A stretch of DNA of 10,935 nucleotides from Opitutia bacterium (GTDB taxonomy: Bacteria > Verrucomicrobiota > Verrucomicrobiia > Opitutales > Opitutaceae), in assembly GCA_003157575.1 (NCBI GenBank), contig PMKA01000341.1, positions 1-10,935 on the forward strand. The letters run 5' to 3'. The notes beneath the pieces were generated by a model that worked only from the letters and a program-made list of their open reading frames with translations, was not told where the DNA came from and made no database searches. Below are positions 1 to 10,935 of this stretch, piece by piece (the stretch's first letter is position 1; each line of letters opens with the position of its first letter). The translations under genes and the position numbers were made by a program.

Positions 1-303
1 CAGCAGCAGCGCCTCTGCATCGCACGTGCGATCGCCGTCGAGCCCGAGATCATCCTGATGGACGAGCCTTGTTCAGCTCTCGATCCCATCGCCACCGCCA
101 AGGTCGAGGAGCTGATTCACGAGCTGAAGAAGAAGTACACGATTGTGATCGTCACCCATAACATGCAGCAGGCTGCGCGGGTGTCGGACCGCACGGCGTT
201 CTTTTACCTCGGCAAACTGGTTGAATTCGACGAGACACGGACCATCTTCATGAAGCCCGCAAATTCCCAGACCGAGGCTTATGTCGCCGGTCGCTTCGGT
301 TGA
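1..303 (+). CDS. pstB: Phosphate ABC transporter ATP-binding protein PstB (3' part only)
   Basis: The reading frame is open at the left edge and shows the last 100 residues of PstB, the cytoplasmic ATPase that drives the high-affinity PstSCA phosphate importer. Visible are the tail of the ABC signature (QQQR, first four residues, with LSGG lost beyond the edge), the Walker B segment [13 protein letters not shown] (about 17-29), the switch histidine in [13 protein letters not shown] (H53), and the C-terminal AYVAGRFG, which resembles the usual PstB ending YITGRFG. The Cys-Ser in the DEPCSALDP loop and the [10 protein letters not shown] segment are PstB hallmarks that separate it from other ABC ATPases. 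It is followed 32 bp later by phoU in the same direction, the classical pst-phoU order; pstSCA should lie to the left of the window. The family assignment is secure. The start and the Walker A are not visible. Confidence 0.97.
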
Positions 304-335
304 TGTCGCCCCGCCGCAATCCTGTTTTCCCACCC

Positions 336-1022
336 ATGAAACGATTCTTCGACACCGAACTCGAAACCTTCCGCTCAAAGCTCATCGTGATGGGGGAGAC
401 GGCCATCGAGCAGGTCCACGCGGCGGTCAAGGCGCTGGAGGAAGGCAGCCCGGCTCTCGCCGGCCAGGTGATCGCCGCCGACGACAAGCTTGACCGCCTG
501 GAGGTCGAAATTGACGACGAGGCCGTGCGCTACATGAACCTGCGCGCTCCGGTCGCCAGCGATCTGCGCCTCGTGATCGTCGGGATGAAGGCGAGCCACG
601 ATCTCGAACGGGTGGGGGACGAGGCGACGAGCATCGCAAAACGCTCGATCAAGCTCGGCGCCGAGCCGCCGCTCAAGGCCTATATCGACATACCCCGCAT
701 GGCGACCATCGCGCTGGAAATGCTGCGCGATGCGCTCGACTGTTTCCTGCAGGTCGACGAGGCGAAGGCGGTCGCGGTGTGCAGGCGCGACGCCGAGGTG
801 GACGATCTCAACCGCCAGCTCTACCGGGAGCTGACGAGCTTCATGGTGGAGGACCCCGCGACGATCTCCCGCGCGATCGAGCTCATGTTCGTCTCGAAAT
901 CGATCGAGCGCATTGCGGACCACGCCACCAATATCGCCGAGGAGATGATCTATCTCAGCCAGGGCAAGGACGTGCGCCATACCGACGAGGTGAAGAAGGG
1001 CCCGGCGGGCGGCCAGGCGTGA
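336..1022 (+). CDS. phoU: Phosphate-specific transport system accessory protein PhoU
   Basis: A 228-residue protein with the PhoU opening MKRFFDTELETF and two PhoU helical-bundle repeats. Each repeat carries the metal-binding E/DxxxD signature: ERVGD (91-95) in KASHDLERVGDEATSIAKRS, and ERIAD (191-195) in SIERIADHATNIAEEM. PhoU is a cytoplasmic peripheral protein that couples PstSCAB transport status to the PhoR kinase and keeps the Pho regulon off when phosphate is plentiful. It lies directly after pstB and is probably co-transcribed with it. ATG at 336 was chosen because it gives the family's usual N terminus. An in-frame ATG at 303 would add 11 residues ([11 protein letters not shown]) and overlap the pstB stop; neither start has a clear Shine-Dalgarno. 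The C-terminal tail after residue 215 is short and Gly/Lys rich. Identification is secure; the exact start is less so. Confidence 0.95.
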   Translation: MKRFFDTELETFRSKLIVMGETAIEQVHAAVKALEEGSPALAGQVIAADDKLDRLEVEIDDEAVRYMNLRAPVASDLRLVIVGMKASHDLERVGDEATSIAKRSIKLGAEPPLKAYIDIPRMATIALEMLRDALDCFLQVDEAKAVAVCRRDAEVDDLNRQLYRELTSFMVEDPATISRAIELMFVSKSIERIADHATNIAEEMIYLSQGKDVRHTDEVKKGPAGGQA

Positions 1023-1083: not shown

Positions 1084-1905
1084 TCATCCACTCGCCATTT
1101 CCACAAGCTCAACCGCGGACCCGGCCGCGGACTCCTCCGGCGGCATTGGGTATTCCCGGAGGAAGCTCACGTAGTCGAGCAGTTCAAAGCGCCCGTCGTG
1201 GTGTTCGACGATCGCCGTCAGCGACTCGATCCAGTCGCCGGAGTTCAGATAATGGACGTCGCCGATCATCTTGTCGGCGGGCGTGTGGATGTGTCCGCAC
1301 ATCACGCCGGCGCATTGGTGATCATGGGCGAGCCTGGCGATGTGATCCTCGAATTTGGAGATGTGGTTGACCGCGGATTTGACGCGGGCCTTGATCGCGC
1401 TGCTCAGCGACCAGTACTCCTTGCCGCGCCAGGCGCGCCATGCGTTGTAGGCGCGGTTGAGTTTCAGGAGCACCTGGTACCCCCAGTCGCCGAAGTGGGA
1501 GAGGAACGCGAAGTTCTGCGTGACGGTGTCGAACACGTCGCCATGCAGGACGAAATAGCGGCCGCGGAGCCCTTCGTGGATGTAATCCTCGACGATGGAG
1601 AGATTCTCGAATTCCAGCGGCAGGAACTTCGCCAGGACGTCGTCGTGGTTGCCCCGGACATAGATGACGGTCGTGTCCCGTTTTTCGAGCATCTTGAGGA
1701 CGATCCGGATGAAGCGGGTATGCGCCTTCGTCCACTGGCCGGAACGCCGGAGCTGCCAGCCGTCGATGATGTCGCCGTTGAGAATGAGCTTCTCGCAGCG
1801 GATGTTTCGCAGAAAATGGTTCACCTCGCGCGCCTTGCACTCGGTCGTGCCGAGGTGGACGTCGGAGATGATCACCGTGCGGACTGAAAGACGGTTCTTT
1901 TCCAT
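1084..1905 (-). CDS. PlcP/LpxH2-like metallophosphoesterase (UDP-2,3-diacylglucosamine diphosphatase family)
   Basis: A 273-residue calcineurin-like metallophosphoesterase. The di-metal motifs are all present: DVH (D15, H17), GDIIDG (D45), GNHDD (N86, H87, D88), HGD (121-123) and GHIHTP (204-209). The linking segments, including DIIDGWQLRRSGQW, FGDWGYQVLLKLNRAYN, EYWSLSSAIK and LNSGDWIES, match the group usually annotated as UDP-2,3-diacylglucosamine pyrophosphatase. The phosphate-starvation phospholipase C PlcP of Sinorhizobium also belongs to this group. PlcP releases diacylglycerol from phospholipids so that glycolipids can be made. As last gene of an operon with two lipid-type glycosyltransferases and a lipid kinase beside pstB-phoU, a PlcP role seems more likely than lipid A synthesis, but this is inference. 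The start overlaps the upstream kinase by 34 nt in another frame. The ATG at 1905 leaves 14 residues before the first metal ligand, normal for the family. No signal peptide or membrane segment is visible. Confidence 0.9.
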   Translation of the reverse strand: MEKNRLSVRTVIISDVHLGTTECKAREVNHFLRNIRCEKLILNGDIIDGWQLRRSGQWTKAHTRFIRIVLKMLEKRDTTVIYVRGNHDDVLAKFLPLEFENLSIVEDYIHEGLRGRYFVLHGDVFDTVTQNFAFLSHFGDWGYQVLLKLNRAYNAWRAWRGKEYWSLSSAIKARVKSAVNHISKFEDHIARLAHDHQCAGVMCGHIHTPADKMIGDVHYLNSGDWIESLTAIVEHHDGRFELLDYVSFLREYPMPPEESAAGSAVELVEMASG

Positions 1906-2834
1906 GGTTCGGGGTGGCTGGAGAGCGGAATTGCGGATGGGATCCTGCAGTTGGAGGGAACCAGAAGGCGCAGGCTGCGCGGGCGGACCTCGACCGTCAC
2001 CGTTGCCGCGGCCGGATGGGTCTCGCCATCCGTGTGGATAAGGCCCGGGGCGGATCGCTCGATGACGAAGTGCGCGGCGCGCAGTCGCCAGATGTGCGGG
2101 CTTCCGCCGATTGTGCCCAGAAAGAGCCGGACCACGAGCGCAGCCGCGCCGAGCAGGCCGGGCGGGCGCACGGCAACGAGATCCAGCAGGCCGTCGTCCA
2201 CCCAGGCCCCCGGCGCAACCCTGGCGTTGTTGCCGTACTGGTCGGAGTTGGCCACGGCCACGATGAAGGCGTCCAGCGTCATGCGGGCGCCGTGGTCGTC
2301 GGAAATGGTGACCTTTTCGGGACGGTGCCGGAGGAATGCGGCGAGTCCGGTGCGCGCGTATGCGGGGAGCCCGCGGCGGGAGAGGCGGTTGAACCGGAAG
2401 CTGATCTCGGCGTCAAAACCAAGGCCCATGACGTTGAAGAACGGGTGGCCGTTGGCCGTGCCGGTGTCGATGGACACGGTGCGGGCGGTGTCGTCGACGA
2501 GCAGCGCGAGGGCGCGGCGCGCCCGTGTGGGCAGCCCGAGGTGAAGCGCCAGGCCGTTGCCCGAGCCGCAAGGCACGAGGGCGAGGGCGGCGGGCGAGCC
2601 AACGAGCGCCTGGGCGATCTCGTTCATCGTTCCATCGCCGCCGACGGCCACGATGCGCTCGACCCCGGCATCGAGCGCGTTGCGGGCAAGTTCGGTGGCG
2701 TGGCCCGGGCACTCGGTAAACACGATCCCGGCGTCCAGCCGGTGCGCTTTTGAGAACGCCTGCAGCTCGGCCGCGAGACGGGGACTGCGGCGGTTCCGGC
2801 CGGAAAAGGGGTTGAAGATGAAGAGCGTCTTCAT
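1872..2834 (-). CDS. Diacylglycerol kinase family lipid kinase (YegS/DgkB type)
   Basis: A 320-residue soluble lipid kinase of the DAGK catalytic-domain family. Seen in order are NPFSGRN (8-14), the nucleotide-binding GGDGTMNE (65-72), PCGSGNGLA (88-96) followed by LHLGLP, the family segment NVMGLGFDAEISFRF, and NSDQYGNNARVAPGAWVDDGLLDL near the start of the beta-sandwich half. These enzymes phosphorylate diacylglycerol or related lipids with ATP at the inner membrane face; DAG to phosphatidate is the likeliest reaction here. The ATG at 2834 overlaps the upstream glycosyltransferase stop as ATGA, which decides the start and implies translational coupling. The frame happens to stay open far upstream, but that part is out-of-frame sequence of the neighbouring gene. 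The 3' end runs 34 nt into the phosphoesterase gene. It could instead act on another lipid alcohol; substrate cannot be read from sequence. Confidence 0.9.
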   Translation of the reverse strand: MKTLFIFNPFSGRNRRSPRLAAELQAFSKAHRLDAGIVFTECPGHATELARNALDAGVERIVAVGGDGTMNEIAQALVGSPAALALVPCGSGNGLALHLGLPTRARRALALLVDDTARTVSIDTGTANGHPFFNVMGLGFDAEISFRFNRLSRRGLPAYARTGLAAFLRHRPEKVTISDDHGARMTLDAFIVAVANSDQYGNNARVAPGAWVDDGLLDLVAVRPPGLLGAAALVVRLFLGTIGGSPHIWRLRAAHFVIERSAPGLIHTDGETHPAAATVTVEVRPRSLRLLVPSNCRIPSAIPLSSHPEPWKRTVFQSAR

Positions 2835-3961
2835 GCGGCGGTCGTGACCGGAGCCGGGACGCCCCCGCCGAGCATCTCGGCAACGATGGCCCGGCTGGCT
2901 TCGGGCCGGGCAAGGGGCGCGAGCGCCTCGCGCCATTTGAGCCAGAGAGAGCCCTTGTCTGCAAACGCCTGCCGCAGCGAGCGGACAACCGCGTCGGGTG
3001 TCTCGACCAGCCCGCCGACGCCGTGGCGGCGGAGCAATTCGTAGTTGCCCTCCTCCTGTCCCGGCACGACCTGGTTCACAAGCATCGGACAACGTGCGGC
3101 GATCGCCTCCTGGGTGGTGGCGCCGCCCGCCTTGCTGATGACTACATGGTGGGTCATCAACAGACGTGGAACCTCGTTGGTCCAGCCGAGGATGTCGGTG
3201 CGCCGGCGCCGGCCGGCGGCGAGGCGTTCGAGCTGTCGCCGCAGGTGATCGTCGCGGCCGACGGCGAACGTCAGCTCCCAGTCGGAATCCTCCAGCAGCC
3301 GGCGCGCGGTCGACAGGGCGTGGCGGACGCCGGAGTGGACGATGTAGAAGACGCGTGGTGTCGCTCCCGCGGCAAGATCGGGCGGGGAGAGGCTCCCGGC
3401 ATGTTCGCTGAAGAACGCAGGGACCGGAAAGCCAAGGACCCGCAGCCTGGCCGCCGGCACCCCCCGGGCGCGCATCACGAGGGCCGTGTCCTGGTTGGGG
3501 ACAAACCATGCGGTGCAGGCCGGGCGGACCCAGAGGGAGTTGATGCTGATGGAATCGGTCACGACGTTGTAGAACGGCGCAGTCAGCCGGCCCGAGGAGG
3601 CGAGACGCTCGAGAAGGAACCCGTAGGCGGGAAAGGTGCTGCAAACGACCGCCGGTTGCTCCCGCTGTATCAGCAGATCCAGCTGGCGGAGCTCCCGGCG
3701 CAGCAGCCAGAGGTGCCGGGGAAAGATCTCATTGTGGTCCACCCACCGGTAAAACGCGCTCCAGAGTCCCGGCGTGCCGTTAATTGCGGCGAGATAGGCG
3801 TGGCGGGCGATCCGGTTGAGCCGCGGAGAGCAAAGGGCGAGGAGGTCGACGGCCTGTGCGGTTCCGGGACCATGCAGCGCGTCGCCGGCTGCGGCGAGGT
3901 TGCGGGCGGCTGCATTGTGCCCCTCGCCGAAACCTGCGGTGAGGATGAGGAGTTTGCTCAT
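2831..3961 (-). CDS. GT28-type glycosyltransferase, MGDG synthase/UgtP-like
   Basis: A 376-residue GT-B glycosyltransferase resembling plant/bacterial monogalactosyldiacylglycerol synthase and Bacillus UgtP. The N-terminal acceptor half has the glycine-rich motif AGFGEGHNAAA (9-19), a tyrosine/tryptophan-rich stretch LWSAFYRWVDHNEIF and VVTDSISINSLWVRP (133-147), where VTD...W is typical of the MGDG-synthase domain. The C-terminal donor half has ISKAGGATTQEAIAARCP (275-292) and PGQEEGNYELL (300-310), the UDP-sugar-binding region. Such enzymes move a hexose from a UDP-sugar onto diacylglycerol at the cytoplasmic membrane face. It is second in the operon: its ATG overlaps the upstream GT4 stop by 4 nt and its stop overlaps the lipid-kinase ATG by 4 nt. 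The neighbours support a DAG acceptor. Donor sugar and processivity cannot be predicted. A MurG-like role in peptidoglycan is disfavoured by the MGDG-type N terminus. Confidence 0.88.
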   Translation of the reverse strand: MSKLLILTAGFGEGHNAAARNLAAAGDALHGPGTAQAVDLLALCSPRLNRIARHAYLAAINGTPGLWSAFYRWVDHNEIFPRHLWLLRRELRQLDLLIQREQPAVVCSTFPAYGFLLERLASSGRLTAPFYNVVTDSISINSLWVRPACTAWFVPNQDTALVMRARGVPAARLRVLGFPVPAFFSEHAGSLSPPDLAAGATPRVFYIVHSGVRHALSTARRLLEDSDWELTFAVGRDDHLRRQLERLAAGRRRRTDILGWTNEVPRLLMTHHVVISKAGGATTQEAIAARCPMLVNQVVPGQEEGNYELLRRHGVGGLVETPDAVVRSLRQAFADKGSLWLKWREALAPLARPEASRAIVAEMLGGGVPAPVTTAA

Positions 3962-5094
3962 GGCGGGTTTGCTTCGATGACGGCGAGCAGGTCGGCCTCA
4001 AACCGGAGGATGACGTTGGTCCAGGAGTGATCGTCCCGGGCGGCGGCGTTCGCGCGCAGGCGGTCCCGCAACGCTCCGTCGCGCGCCAGTTCGGCGGCGG
4101 CGGCCGCGAGCGCCTGCGGATCGTGCCGGGGTGCGACGAGACCGTTCTCGCCGTGGCGGACGAACTGGCGCGCCGCGGCATAGTCGAAACTGGCTATCGC
4201 AAGGCCGCTGGCCATCGCTTCGGTGACCACATTGCCGAAGGTCTCAGTCAGGCTTGCATGCACATAGACGTCGGCGGAGGCGTAGTGGCGGGACAGGGCT
4301 TCGCGCGGGATGAACCCGGTGAAAATGCACTCCGGGTGGGCCGCCTGGAGGGCCGGCCGCAACGGGCCGTCGCCGACGAGCACAAAACGCAGGCGCGGGT
4401 GGACGGCGCGCATCGCGGAATACGAGGCGAACAGGAGCGGATAGTTCTTTTCGGCCGCCATCCGGCCGACGTGCAGCAGGACGACGTCTCCATTGACGGC
4501 GCCCCAGCTGGCGCGAAGTGCAGAAGAGCGGAAAGCGGGTGAAAAGCTTTTGGAGTCCACGCCGCGCGAGAGCACGCCGAGCCGGGTGAAGCCAAGCGCG
4601 AAAAGTTCCTGGCAGAGCTCCTCGGTCGGTGCGAAGGTGCGCAGCGTGCGGTTGTGAACGTGGCGCAGCCATGCGATCGCGGCTCCGCGCAGGGGTGCGA
4701 ATCCGTAGCACTTCGCATAGAGGTGGAAATTGGTGTGGAAGCTCGATGTGACCGGTATGCCGAGCGCCCGGGCGGCGCTTACCGCCGATGCGCCGAGCGG
4801 ACCCTCGGTGGCGACGTGCACGAGATCCGGGCGTCCGGCCCGCCACAGCCTTTTTAGCCGCCGTCGCGCGGGCAGGCCGAGCCGCATCAGGGGGTAACCG
4901 GGCAGCGGCAGACCGGGCAGGGGCTCCTCGCGATATTCCGGGTGCTCGGCGGTGCTGGAAAGATCGGACCGCCGTGGCCGGTAGACCGTCACCTCGTGCT
5001 TCCGACGGCCCAATTCACGGGCGATAATCCCAAAGGTCATGGCGACGCCGTTGATCTCGGGAGGGAAGGTCTCGGTGACGATGGCCAGTTTCAC
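3958..5094 (-). CDS. GT4 family glycosyltransferase (SqdX/MgtA/DgdA-like)
   Basis: A 378-residue retaining GT-B glycosyltransferase. The N-terminal acceptor domain begins VKLAIVTETFPPEINGVAMT (the GTG start is read as Met) and contains VHVATEGPLG and SSFHTNFHLYAKCYG. The C-terminal domain has LLHVGRMAAEKN (207-217) with the donor-phosphate-binding R211 and K216, LVGDGPLR, and the EX7E motif ETFGNVVTE with E284 and E292. Relatives add glucose, galactose, mannose or sulfoquinovose to lipid acceptors, and this subtype is often found beside PlcP/LpxH2-like genes. As first gene of the operon it may glycosylate DAG directly or extend the sugar added by the GT28 partner. The start is GTG at 5094: an ATG two bases earlier is followed at once by TGA, and no in-frame ATG/GTG/TTG occurs further upstream. 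The donor sugar is unknown. Confidence 0.88.
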   Translation of the reverse strand: MKLAIVTETFPPEINGVAMTFGIIARELGRRKHEVTVYRPRRSDLSSTAEHPEYREEPLPGLPLPGYPLMRLGLPARRRLKRLWRAGRPDLVHVATEGPLGASAVSAARALGIPVTSSFHTNFHLYAKCYGFAPLRGAAIAWLRHVHNRTLRTFAPTEELCQELFALGFTRLGVLSRGVDSKSFSPAFRSSALRASWGAVNGDVVLLHVGRMAAEKNYPLLFASYSAMRAVHPRLRFVLVGDGPLRPALQAAHPECIFTGFIPREALSRHYASADVYVHASLTETFGNVVTEAMASGLAIASFDYAAARQFVRHGENGLVAPRHDPQALAAAAAELARDGALRDRLRANAAARDDHSWTNVILRFEADLLAVIEANPP

Positions 5095-5128: not shown

Positions 5129-5163
5129 AGGAGGCTGTCGGACTTGCGTTCCGACAGCCTCCT
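5129..5163. repeat. Perfect 14-bp stem-loop in the lipid-operon leader (hairpin 1)
   Basis: AGGAGGCTGTCGGA (5129-5142) and TCCGACAGCCTCCT (5150-5163) are exact reverse complements around a 7-nt loop (cttgcgt). It lies 35-70 nt upstream of the GT4 start codon. Neither strand has a T-run after the stem, so a classical intrinsic terminator is unlikely. If transcription starts near the Pho-box-like site at 5180-5208, this hairpin would be at or near the 5' end of the mRNA. Confidence 0.75.
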
Positions 5164-5170
5164 AGAGTCT

Positions 5171-5200
5171 CATCCACAGGTGACGGACCTGTGTCGGATG
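5171..5200. repeat. Stem-loop 2 of the intergenic array
   Basis: CACAGGT (5175-5181) pairs perfectly with ACCTGTG (5187-5193) around gacgg. CATC (5171-5174) then pairs with GATG (5197-5200), leaving a 3-nt bulge, 11 bp in all. It overlaps the Pho-box-like repeats of site A, so the palindrome may reflect a protein-binding site rather than RNA structure. Confidence 0.55.
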
Positions 5201-5208
5201 CGTGACGA
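5180..5208 (-). promoter_or_regulatory. Pho-box-like direct repeats upstream of the lipid operon (site A)
   Basis: Read on the minus strand, three heptamers TCGTCAC (5208-5202), CCGACAC (5197-5191) and CCGTCAC (5186-5180) start exactly 11 bp apart with 4-bp spacers. PhoB and related OmpR-family regulators bind 7-bp repeats with 4-bp spacers; the E. coli half-site is CTGTCAC/T. The repeats face the GT4 gene and end 85 nt before its GTG. No convincing -10 box was found downstream. The array overlaps stem-loop 2 (5171-5200), which contributes some of the self-similarity. The same motif and phase recur at 10523-10551 and 7690-7729. Confidence 0.5.
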
Positions 5209-5219
5209 TCGGGGCAAAT

Positions 5220-5258
5220 CCAAGGAGCCTGCCGGACTTCGTCCTCCGGGCTCCTTGG
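5220..5258. repeat. Stem-loop 3 of the intergenic array
   Basis: CCAAGGAGCC (5220-5229) pairs perfectly with GGCTCCTTGG (5249-5258). CGGA (5233-5236) pairs inside with TCCG (5245-5248) across a 3-nt bulge, leaving an 8-nt loop. Its sequence resembles hairpin 1: both arms share AGGAG-CTG-CGGACTT, suggesting a diverged second copy of the same element. Confidence 0.65.
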
Positions 5259-7689: not shown

Positions 7690-7729
7690 GTTACGGCAGC
7701 GTGGCGGAGGGGTGATATTTCGGTGACGC
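7690..7729 (-). promoter_or_regulatory. Pho-box-like direct repeats in the kinase/hydrolase divergent region (site C)
   Basis: This 274-bp divergent region (7516-7789) holds no gene that I can support. Read on the minus strand it contains GCGTCAC (7729-7723), ATATCAC (7718-7712), CCGCCAC (7707-7701) and CCGTAAC (7696-7690), four heptamers at exact 11-bp phase. All share the final A-C, and most the C-G-T core, with sites A and B. The orientation matches the kinase gene, but the site is 175 bp from its ATG and only 60 bp from the hydrolase start on the other strand, so the regulated gene is undecided. The units are more degenerate than at site A. Confidence 0.38.
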
Positions 7730-7789: not shown

Positions 7790-8905
7790 ATGCCCACGCT
7801 GACGTTCTCGCCGGTTCCCGCCTGGTTGTTCCAGTTCAGCCGCTTCGCGCCGCCGCCGGTCTGGCGGACGCTCCTGCGCTCGGCCGGCCGCAGGCTGCAG
7901 CCGCGCCGCTCCGCGCCGCTCGCGCCGCGGATCCGCCGCCGCCAGGAGGCCCTGCTCGCCCGCGGGGCCGCCGGTCCGCAACACCGGGCGGCGATCATCC
8001 GCGATCCGGGCCGCGGCGTCACTCCGACGATTGTCCTCGGAGGTTTCGTGCCGGATTCGAGCGAGACCGTGTTTCTGCTGCGCGACCTGTTCCTGCATCA
8101 GGGCGACCTTTACTGCGTCGATTATCCACGGCACGGCTTCAACCTCGAACTGCTGTGCGCCCAGCTCGACGACCTGGTGGAGGAGCTGGCGCTGCGCGGC
8201 GGCCAGCGGCCCGTTGTCATGGGGGTGAGTTTCGGTGCGGGACTCGTTCTGGAATGGCTGCGCCGCCACCGGCTGGCGGGGGATCCGCCCGTGCTGCGCG
8301 GCGTCGTGATTGTCAGTCCCGTAGCGTGCGTCGAGGACCTGCTCCCCGACGCCGCCGCAAAACCGACCACCCTGCTCGGCCGCGCGATCAAACCCTACTT
8401 GGTCGAACGGACTGCGGTCGACCCGCTCGTCGTGGAGAAATCCCGCGCGATCTTCATCAAGATGTTCGAGGCGGGCGCCAAGAACCGCGCCTCGCTGCGG
8501 GGGATCATGACCGCCGGGGAACTGGCCGGATTGCGCGCCGCGGTGTTGGGAACGATCCGCGGCGTCGATTTTGCCGGCGCCTGCGAGCGCGTGCAGACGC
8601 TGCGCCTGCTGCCGCCTCCGACGAGCTATTTCCAGCTCGACGTCCTGCCCTTGTGCGAGGCGCCGGCGCTTATCCTCTACGCCGAGAAGGAGGACTCCGT
8701 CATCGCCGTCGGCTCGCCGACCCGCCGGGCGTTCGCGGCGGCCCACCGGGCCTACTTTTCATCCAGCGAATGCCGGGTCGTCGCCAACCCGGGCGGCGCG
8801 CAAGTCCAGCACGCGTCGCTGATCTTCCACAGCGCCAATTTCCGGCCGGTGCTCGCCGGCTTCTTCCGACAGGTTCGCAGCCTGCGCCTGCCGCTGGCCG
8901 CATGA
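7790..8905 (+). CDS. Alpha/beta hydrolase-fold protein
   Basis: A 371-residue protein with an alpha/beta-hydrolase core starting near residue 79 (TPTIVLGGFVPDSSETVFLLRDLF). The nucleophile elbow is GVSFGAG with Ser147. A plausible catalytic acid is D302 in LYAEKEDSVIAV and the His is H341 in VQHASLIF, giving a complete triad in the right order. Residues 24-66 are very Arg/Pro rich and probably disordered or surface-binding. The DYPRHGFNLELL stretch follows strand 4, as in esterase/lipase-like members. A lid-like insertion spans about 185-280. I do not recognise a specific substrate. It precedes the GH3-family gene by 22 nt on the same strand, so the two are probably one transcript, and a role in hydrolysing or supplying the GH3 enzyme's acyl substrate is conceivable but unproven. 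ATG 7790 is the only supported start; upstream sequence has no good Shine-Dalgarno. Confidence 0.85.
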   Translation: MPTLTFSPVPAWLFQFSRFAPPPVWRTLLRSAGRRLQPRRSAPLAPRIRRRQEALLARGAAGPQHRAAIIRDPGRGVTPTIVLGGFVPDSSETVFLLRDLFLHQGDLYCVDYPRHGFNLELLCAQLDDLVEELALRGGQRPVVMGVSFGAGLVLEWLRRHRLAGDPPVLRGVVIVSPVACVEDLLPDAAAKPTTLLGRAIKPYLVERTAVDPLVVEKSRAIFIKMFEAGAKNRASLRGIMTAGELAGLRAAVLGTIRGVDFAGACERVQTLRLLPPPTSYFQLDVLPLCEAPALILYAEKEDSVIAVGSPTRRAFAAAHRAYFSSSECRVVANPGGAQVQHASLIFHSANFRPVLAGFFRQVRSLRLPLAA

Positions 8906-8927
8906 GGATTTGTATGGCTCCGTTTCC

Positions 8928-10511
8928 ATGAACCTCGCCCGGCGAGTCATCCTTGGCCCGATAGCGACCGGCCTGACGGCCGATGTGCGGCGGCGCATCC
9001 AACGGAGCGGCGCGGGCCATGCCGGCCAACAAACGGCGTTCGCGGACCTGACCCGCCGGATCGCCGCGTCCATGTACGGCCGGGAGACCGGTGTCGAGGC
9101 CGGCATGGCGTACGAGGAGTTTCGACGAAGGGTGCCTCCGCGCACGTACGAGGGCTTTGCGCCGTTCATCGAGCGGATGAAGCGGGGGGAGGACGGTGTG
9201 CTGTGGCCGGGGGTCTGCAACCATTTCGCAGTCTCATCGGGCACGACGGCCGGGCGCACGAAATACCTGCCGGTGACGCCGGCTCTGCTGGCGCATTTCC
9301 GACGGGCCGGACTCGAATCGCTGCTCTATTACGCGGCGCGGACCGGGCGGACGGACGTGTTTCTTGGCCGGCACCTTTTTCTCGGCGGTTCGTCGGCGCT
9401 CACGCCCGTTCGGGAACGCACCGGAGGGAGCCCTGCCTATGCAGGCGATTTGAGCGGAATCACGGCCCTCGACATGCCCGCGTGGGCCGACCGGGTGCTG
9501 TACGAGCCCGGGAAAACGATCGCCCAGATGAGCGACTGGCCGGCGAAGATCGACGCAATTGCCGCGCGGACATGGCAGCGCGACATCACCTTGCTCGCTG
9601 GAATCCCCAGTTGGGTGCTCGTGCTTGCAGAGGCGTTGCGGGCGCGGGCGGCACGATCGGGGAAATCGATCCGGCATCTGCAGGATCTCTGGCCGAATTT
9701 CCAATGCCTCGTGCACGGCGGGGTGCCGGTCGCGCCGTTTGCCGCCGAACTGCAGGCGGCGCTCGGACCCTCGGTGGTTTTTCACGAAGTCTATCCAGCG
9801 TCGGAGGGATTCATCGCAGCCCAGGATGCCGATGCCGATGCGGGGCTGCGGCTGATGACGGAAGCGGGGCTGTTCTTTGAGTTCCTGCCCCTTGAACATT
9901 TTGCCGAGCCGGAAGTGGCGAACCTCGGAGGGCGCGCGGTTCCGCTCGAAGACGTGAAGCCCGGCGCGGATTACGTGTTGCTCCTGACGACTCCAGCCGG
10001 GCTCTGCCGGTATGTGATCGGCGACGTTGTGCGATTCACGGCAACCGATGTGCCGCGCCTGGTTTATGCCGGCCGGACAAGGCTCCAGCTGAGCGCATTC
10101 GGGGAACACGTCATCGAAAAGGAGCTCACGGACGCGCTTTCGGCGGTTGCGCGATGCCGTGTCTGGAAGGTGGCGGACTTCCATGTCGCGCCGTTGTTTG
10201 TCGACGCCGCCGCGGGCGTGCGACGCGGCCGCCATGAATGGTGGCTGGAGCTCCGCGCGAGGGCGGGCGCCGCGCCTGAGGCGGATTCGATCGCGACCGA
10301 ACTGGACGGCGAACTCATGCTTCGCAACGACGACTACGAGGCGAAGCGGCGGGGAGGGGGGCTCGACGCGCCGCTCGTGCACTTCGTCGCGCCCGGCACA
10401 TTTGAACGCTGGCTGCGCGCCGGCGGCAGGTGGGGCGGACAGCACAAGACCCCCCGTTGCCGCAGCGACCGCGCGATTGCCGACGAACTGGCCGCAATCG
10501 CCGGGCCATGA
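8928..10511 (+). CDS. GH3 auxin-responsive-promoter family protein (acyl-adenylate-forming amide synthetase fold)
   Basis: A 527-residue GH3-family member of the firefly-luciferase/ANL adenylating superfamily. Visible are the ATP-phosphate loop SSGTTAGRTKYLP (103-115), the motif YPASEG (289-294) for adenine/ribose contact, CRYVIGDVVRF (360-370), YAGRTRLQLSAFGEHV (380-395) and the C-terminal HKTPRC with Lys507. Plant GH3 enzymes adenylate acyl acids such as indole-acetate or jasmonate and transfer them to amino acids; bacterial relatives are mostly uncharacterised. The length and full motif set imply an active enzyme. The start was placed at ATG 8928. A TTG at 8910 would add six residues, and a GAGGA (8904-8908) overlapping the hydrolase stop is 19 nt from the ATG, which is long. 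It is coupled to the upstream hydrolase. Substrates are unknown. Confidence 0.9.
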   Translation: MNLARRVILGPIATGLTADVRRRIQRSGAGHAGQQTAFADLTRRIAASMYGRETGVEAGMAYEEFRRRVPPRTYEGFAPFIERMKRGEDGVLWPGVCNHFAVSSGTTAGRTKYLPVTPALLAHFRRAGLESLLYYAARTGRTDVFLGRHLFLGGSSALTPVRERTGGSPAYAGDLSGITALDMPAWADRVLYEPGKTIAQMSDWPAKIDAIAARTWQRDITLLAGIPSWVLVLAEALRARAARSGKSIRHLQDLWPNFQCLVHGGVPVAPFAAELQAALGPSVVFHEVYPASEGFIAAQDADADAGLRLMTEAGLFFEFLPLEHFAEPEVANLGGRAVPLEDVKPGADYVLLLTTPAGLCRYVIGDVVRFTATDVPRLVYAGRTRLQLSAFGEHVIEKELTDALSAVARCRVWKVADFHVAPLFVDAAAGVRRGRHEWWLELRARAGAAPEADSIATELDGELMLRNDDYEAKRRGGGLDAPLVHFVAPGTFERWLRAGGRWGGQHKTPRCRSDRAIADELAAIAGP

Positions 10512-10522
10512 CCGGCGGCGAC

Positions 10523-10551
10523 TCTTGACCGGATCGTCACATCTTCGCCAC
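10523..10551 (+). promoter_or_regulatory. Pho-box-like direct repeats upstream of the PhoB-like regulator (site B)
   Basis: Within the 91-bp gap between the GH3 gene and the regulator are TCTTGAC (10523-10529), TCGTCAC (10534-10540) and TCGCCAC (10545-10551), again at exact 11-bp phase and facing the downstream gene, whose ATG is 51 nt further on. The middle unit is identical to one unit of site A. The first unit also looks like a TTGAC -35 element. No clear -10 is seen at the expected distance; GATATT at 10573-10578 is the best AT-rich candidate. Confidence 0.48.
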
Positions 10552-10602
10552 GGGATTGCCGCCGATTCCGGCGATATTTGGAGAAAATAACCTCCGTCTG
10601 CA

Positions 10603-10935
10603 ATGAATCCCCTGATCCTCGCCGTCGACGACGAGCGCGACATCCTCGATCTTGTCCGCTTTCATCTCACCCGCGCCGGATGCGACGTCGTCACGGCCGC
10701 CAGCGGTCGCGACGCGTTGGAATCGATCCGCGTCAGGCGCCCGGATCTCGTTCTGCTCGACCTGATGCTGCCGGACATCGATGGCTTTGCCGTCTGCGAG
10801 ATCCTGCGGCGGCAGGCGGCGACGGCGGCGATTCCGATCGTGATCCTGAGCGCATGGCACACGGATGATTCGCGCGACCTTGGCCTCGAGCTGGGCGCGC
10901 TCGATTTCCTGACCAAGCCGTTCAGTCCGAAGGTG
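10603..10935 (+). CDS. PhoB-like response regulator, receiver domain (3' end beyond window)
   Basis: The frame opens with ATG at 10603 (MNPLILAVDDERDILDLVRF) and runs open to the right edge, giving 111 residues of a CheY-like receiver. The acidic pair is D9/D10, the phosphoacceptor is D53 in LVLLDLMLPDIDG, the switch Ser is S83 in VILSAW, and the Lys is K105 in FLTKPFSPK. The VCEILRR and GLELGA...TKPFSP segments are typical of PhoB/OmpR-subfamily regulators, which carry a winged-helix DNA-binding domain C-terminally, here outside the window. PhoB is phosphorylated by PhoR and activates phosphate-starvation genes. Two differences from common PhoB are visible: SAW instead of TA after the switch residue, and GALDF instead of GADDY. 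Candidate Pho boxes lie 51 nt upstream, suggesting autoregulation. The OmpR-type output domain and a downstream phoR are predictions. Confidence 0.85.
   Translation, partial: MNPLILAVDDERDILDLVRFHLTRAGCDVVTAASGRDALESIRVRRPDLVLLDLMLPDIDGFAVCEILRRQAATAAIPIVILSAWHTDDSRDLGLELGALDFLTKPFSPKV

Follow-up and report, generated by a model that had tools for sequence, protein, structure and literature searches.

A Pho-box-type repeat array precedes a PlcP-like lipid operon in Opitutaceae and probably places it under phosphate control

The Pho box is described (PMC2648988) as a pair of 11-bp direct repeats, each with the 7-bp core CTGTCAT. In Escherichia coli K-12, pstS carries four units followed after 10 bp by TATTTT, and phoA two units followed after 10 bp by TATAGT, a spacing that is the same in the Opitutaceae array promoters described here. 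At such promoters PhoB takes the place of the −35 element. Putative Pho boxes before plcP clusters of marine bacteria have already been published (PMC4796936), as has plcP-agt in a methanotroph (PMC9239053), and a single OlsH-OlsI operon was described for planctomycetes in 2025 (PMC12493201). The kind of promoter reported below is therefore already known. According to PMC4796936, the marine clusters place a phosphoesterase and glycosyltransferases behind a putative Pho box, as in Opitutaceae, and homologues are reported in a verrucomicrobial single-cell genome; the Opitutaceae operon differs in that a GT4 gene comes first, then a GT28-type gene and a lipid kinase gene, with the PlcP-like gene last, and in belonging to a different bacterial family. 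In the literature searched there was no report of plcP in this group, only the marine plcP study (PMC4796936) on a Pho box and PhoB in Verrucomicrobia, and a single metagenome study on phosphate starvation and lipids in Opitutaceae; an earlier description of a verrucomicrobial Pho regulon may nevertheless exist.

The DNA analysed here (the window, 10,935 nucleotides) comes from an Opitutaceae genome of 3.99 Mb in 546 contigs that is 73.6% complete, and its features are listed in Table 1. Overlaps of a few bases between the four lipid genes on the minus strand suggest that they form a single operon behind the array. The first-pass annotation had described three heptamers facing the GT4 gene on the minus strand, and both their sequence and their positions were as it said: TCGTCAC at 5208-5202, CCGACAC at 5197-5191 and CCGTCAC at 5186-5180, in steps of exactly 11 bp. 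Its tally of ten units in three intergenic regions was likewise borne out, with three at 5208-5180 (−), four at 7729-7690 (−) and three at 10523-10551 (+), all ten ending in AC and nine having C as the second base. The array at 5208-5180 has the marks of a Pho box, namely direct repeats of 7-bp units in 11-bp steps, a −10 hexamer at the phoA/pstS distance, and an array common to the phosphate genes of the lineage. As the best explanation, we take positions 5219-5164 (−) to be a Pho-box-type promoter of the GT4-GT28-lipid kinase-PlcP-like operon, driven by PhoB at low phosphate, with a probability of about 0.82. The PhoB/PhoR-like pair of the host and the presence of pstB and phoU in the window also support this reading.

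Table 1. Features of the window (positions counted from its first nucleotide).
Feature	Positions	Strand	Remarks
Three-unit Pho-box-type array	5180..5208	minus	TCGTCAC gcat CCGACAC aggt CCGTCAC
Fourth, weaker unit, ATTTGCC	5213..5219	minus	In phase, upstream of array; position conserved in GT4 and porin profiles
−10-like hexamer, GACTCT	5164..5169	minus	10 bp past last unit
Palindrome, 14-bp arms	5129..5163		Directly after −10 hexamer, before start codon
GT4 glycosyltransferase	3958..5094	minus	First operon gene
MGDG-synthase-type (GT28-like) glycosyltransferase	2831..3961	minus	PF06925
YegS/BmrU-type lipid kinase	1872..2834	minus	PF00781; TIGR00147 above cut-off
PlcP-like calcineurin-type phosphoesterase	1084..1905	minus	Family match, operon context
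pstB end (1-303) and phoU (336-1022)	1..1022	plus	Convergent to lipid operon
Hybrid histidine kinase		minus	Further upstream of GT4
OlsI-like alpha/beta hydrolase (7790-8905) and OlsH-like GH3 enzyme (8928-10511)	7790..10511	plus	
Third array, four units	7690..7729	minus	Directed away from OlsI-like gene
Second array	10523..10578	plus	TCTTGAC, TCGTCAC, TCGCCAC, TTGCCGC, 10 bp, GATATT; 29.3 bits
Receiver-domain protein	10603..10935	plus	Cut at 111 aa by contig end; same-genus orthologues receiver-only

Phosphate genes of the family provided a source of promoters separate from the lipid operon. On a host contig (C441) a partial pstS-type gene follows a porin gene, whose upstream region contains the units TCGTAAC gcag CCGTCAT ccaa TCGTAAC. 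Upstream regions of pstS itself were rejected as a training set (array in only 3/32), and since several of these stretches resembled the end of another gene, the region upstream of the preceding porin gene was used instead. Genes for PhoB-like proteins were also discarded for training; they mostly lack the array (4/25 forward, 4/25 reverse), which counts against the Pho-box reading. The array was present in 20 of the 24 family porin upstream regions, host included, at p≤0.02. A matrix was trained on 19 porin-pstS promoters from genomes other than the host, with no GT4 promoter among them; the training sites had been located through a consensus blending that of the first-pass annotation with that of E. 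coli, and are to that extent not fully independent of the motif first noticed. With this matrix, the 200 bp before 45 named GT4 genes reached at least 15 bits in 37 cases and less in 8, the latter a point against the Pho-box reading, and that score was reached in 0/900 random segments of the same loci, 0/450 shuffles and 0/45 opposite strands. The three highest scores in the window were those at 5208(−), 10534(+) and 7718(−), at 26.9, 25.5 and 25.4 bits, that is, the array before GT4 and the two further intergenic arrays already annotated, and the best score among 60 dinucleotide-shuffled windows was 19.0 bits. The ranking and scores obtained with a porin-trained matrix, together with the 10-bp spacing of the hexamer, argue for a Pho-box-type promoter. 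The comparison on which this reading could have fallen, fixed beforehand, left it standing, with the array in the porin-pstS promoters as counted above and in 44/45 GT4 upstream regions.

To examine promoter geometry, profiles were built from 20 porin promoters and 45 GT4 promoters, the latter taken from the window and from 44 relatives (L098 excluded). Information was concentrated in the units, in the weaker fourth upstream unit and in the hexamer 10 bp past the last unit. NANNNT occurred exactly 10 bp past the array in 29/45 GT4 and 17/20 porin promoters; at none of the 14 other offsets did it exceed 4/45 and 3/20, respectively. The unit consensus, YCGNCAC/TCGTMAC, differs from the E. coli CTGTCAT, the final AC being nearly fixed in Opitutaceae. 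The hexamer in the window is weak, GACTCT agreeing with TATAAT only at A2 and T6, and this counts against a Pho-box promoter. Two-unit matches are frequent by chance, and one could envisage that the repeats arose in that way or are a functionless relic of common ancestry; however, only the units and the −10 hexamer carry information, unrelated porin promoters share the array, and random segments and shuffles never attain the matrix score, so that we regard such an origin as very improbable.

Conservation was assessed in relatives labelled Opitutaceae, Opitutia/Opitutae or Verrucomicrobia. The GT4 query had matches at E≤1e-20 in 123 of 150 family genomes, paralogues included, and a scan of named genomes yielded 46 GT4 loci, of which 45 were scored after one (L097) was dropped for too little upstream DNA. 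The three-unit array was detected in all but one of the 45 at p≤0.017 against 300 shuffles, a count in which the relatives are not independent samples. The exception, L098, in which the array was absent (p=0.24 against 300 shuffles), counts against the Pho-box reading. The order GT4-GT28-kinase-PlcP-like was found at 27 of the 46 loci; the kinase was missing at 3, the order was GT4-PlcP-GT28 at 8 (about 55% identity), 6 loci were cut off early, and GT4 stood alone at 2. Genes for pstB and phoU, at least 69% identical, were present on 4/46 loci (L063, L065, L096 and L106).

The specificity of the pattern across genomes depended on its stringency. Patterns of two units allowing one mismatch showed little enrichment in the host genome (29 matches, 21 in the reversed control), and the same held for three units allowing two mismatches (19 and 13); these loose patterns were dropped as evidence because their counts lay near those of the controls. 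The exact three-unit pattern was the only specific one, with 23 matches in 61 genomes and a single match in the reversed control. It lay directly before a GT4 gene in 12 of the 23 cases; given that the pattern was drafted after the GT4 promoters had been seen, these matches are partly circular. Reading frames were scanned near nine of the 11 other matches (all but L170 and L173). Families were found near five, namely a PBP/pstS-type protein, a VTC-domain protein, two proteins with a TonB plug domain, and DnaA, whose start is about 495 bp away; no family was found near the other four. The frames at L158, L161 and L169 overlap the array site and may not be genes. The VTC-domain gene (polyphosphate polymerase type) belongs to a relative and has the exact array directly before it (L162, 1501-2341). 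On host contig C101 (L179, 7001-7040) an exact three-unit array is accompanied by an in-phase fourth near-match, and the 172-aa frame behind it matched no Pfam family.

Other members of the OmpR family also use 11-bp direct repeats, and the host encodes several OmpR-type regulators: a PhoB query gave seven matches at E≤1e-30, two of them PhoB-like. A different OmpR-family regulator might therefore bind the array and control phosphate uptake and lipids jointly in response to a different stress. Against this, the array marks porin-pstS promoters, and its exact matches elsewhere include pstS and the VTC-domain gene, which points to phosphate as the signal; we judge another regulator to be quite unlikely. 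For PhoB, the host offers PhoB-like candidates on contigs C202 and C302. The best candidate for a PhoB/PhoR pair is on C202, separate from the window contig, where the gene for a PhoB-like regulator overlaps the subsequent gene for a PnpS/PhoR-like kinase. The regulator scored 245 bits for TIGR02154 (PhoB), below the cut-off of 296, yet this was its best family match; the kinase scored below the cut-offs for both PnpS (315, cut-off 400) and PhoR (294, cut-off 334). The predicted recognition helix of the C202 protein, RTVDTHVRRLR, is near-identical to that of E. coli PhoB, RTVDVHIRRLR, which also favours the Pho-box reading; those of two other host regulators diverge more.

The regulator encoded at 10603 had been put forward as the protein for footprinting, a proposal that we do not uphold. 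Its five top matches within the genus, 65-79% identical, stop 123-136 aa past the start of the match, and a DNA-binding domain is absent from these five orthologues. Judged by its orthologues, the protein is very probably receiver-only, thus not the regulator expected to protect the array, and probably not PhoB. Identity is highest, at 50-54%, with five PhoB-like proteins of other genera whose genes lie no more than about 6 kb from a pstS-type gene, and is 37-41% with five others, including those on C202 and C302; the protein may be a phosphorelay modulator that arose from PhoB. Since the receiver-gene promoters of five relatives score only 1.4 to 14.1 bits with the matrix, the case for a Pho-type promoter of this gene is weaker than it looks from the window by itself.

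The palindrome that follows the −10 hexamer bears on whether the promoter works in the host. The host genome holds 24 dispersed copies, this one included (at most three mismatches; none in the reversed control); the palindrome has a fold z of −5.2 and looks like a REP-type element. No inverted repeat was found at the corresponding place in four same-genus loci or in L066, and L081, the locus of the cultivated relative Geminisphaera colitermitum TAV2, which has the Pho-box-type array, carries a different one there. The palindrome overlies the expected transcription start, which counts against the Pho-box promoter reading, and its position directly after the hexamer, dispersed family, absence from the four same-genus loci and fold would fit a promoter that was weakened or broken in the host genome alone. 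However, the units, the spacer and the operon frames are intact, the identity of the promoter at the level of the family is unaffected, and hairpins at the 5′ end may also make a transcript more stable; we consider a damaged promoter unlikely, but worth bearing in mind for this genome. A second palindrome, at 5220-5258, has 18-nt arms that are 83% complementary; it directly abuts the fourth unit, which leaves the 56-bp promoter bracketed by a palindrome on either side.

Under the Pho-box reading, a PhoB-type regulator would be phosphorylated under phosphate shortage, bind the 11-bp direct repeats as a substitute for a −35 element, and recruit RNA polymerase to the hexamer that follows after 10 bp, turning on the four lipid genes. 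The PlcP-like enzyme would then strip the phosphate headgroup from phospholipids, the glycosyltransferases would convert the released diacylglycerol to glycolipids, and the lipid kinase would return excess diacylglycerol to phosphatidate. Because the control DNA of the lipid operon bears the same repeats as that of phosphate-uptake genes, such a swap of phosphorus-containing for phosphorus-free membrane lipids is very probably induced by phosphate shortage. This would extend phosphate-controlled membrane remodelling to the Opitutaceae (Verrucomicrobiota), and three to four 11-bp units, a 10-bp spacer and a −10 hexamer make a usable promoter model for regulon prediction in the family. We call the phosphoesterase PlcP-like, a putative assignment drawn from fold family, gene neighbours and literature; an identity as LpxH was rejected (37 bits, NF003743 cut-off 134). 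A search of solved structures gave no match for this protein and only distant GT4 enzymes for the GT4 glycosyltransferase. A homologue of the phosphoesterase (48% identical) on a Mitsuaria plasmid (L298, 3929-6995) has ppk1 and a Ppx/GppA gene as neighbours, and no adjoining glycosyltransferase gene.

The window also contains an OlsI-like and OlsH-like pair. As in the planctomycete ornithine-lipid pathway (PMC12493201), a GH3-like enzyme and an alpha/beta hydrolase are adjacent; the Opitutaceae pair differs in being hydrolase-first and beside a Pho-type array, and its lipid product is putative. The OlsH-like enzyme scored 347 bits, below the NF052613 cut-off of 620 for OlsH membership. The reading of 7729-7690 as a Pho box stood only in part: the phased array is there, but it is directed away from the OlsI-like gene, and no −10-like hexamer follows it at the usual distance. 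Before OlsI-like genes, arrays were found by consensus score in 3/30 cases forward and 16/30 reverse, and by the matrix in 1/30 and 8/30, respectively (0/300 in shuffles); the orientation is ambiguous because porin promoters also score on the reverse strand (11/24, consensus score). It is tempting to envisage a Pho island of the Opitutaceae, in which phospholipids would give way both to glycolipids made from PlcP-released diacylglycerol and to OlsI-OlsH ornithine-type lipids, while the receiver-only protein, under its own Pho box, would feed back on PhoR-PhoB; we hold this only tentatively and think it rather doubtful as a whole. Matches to OlsI occurred in 37 of 100 family genomes, and OlsI-like and OlsH-like genes were both present on 3 of the 46 GT4 loci (L077, L079 and L106).
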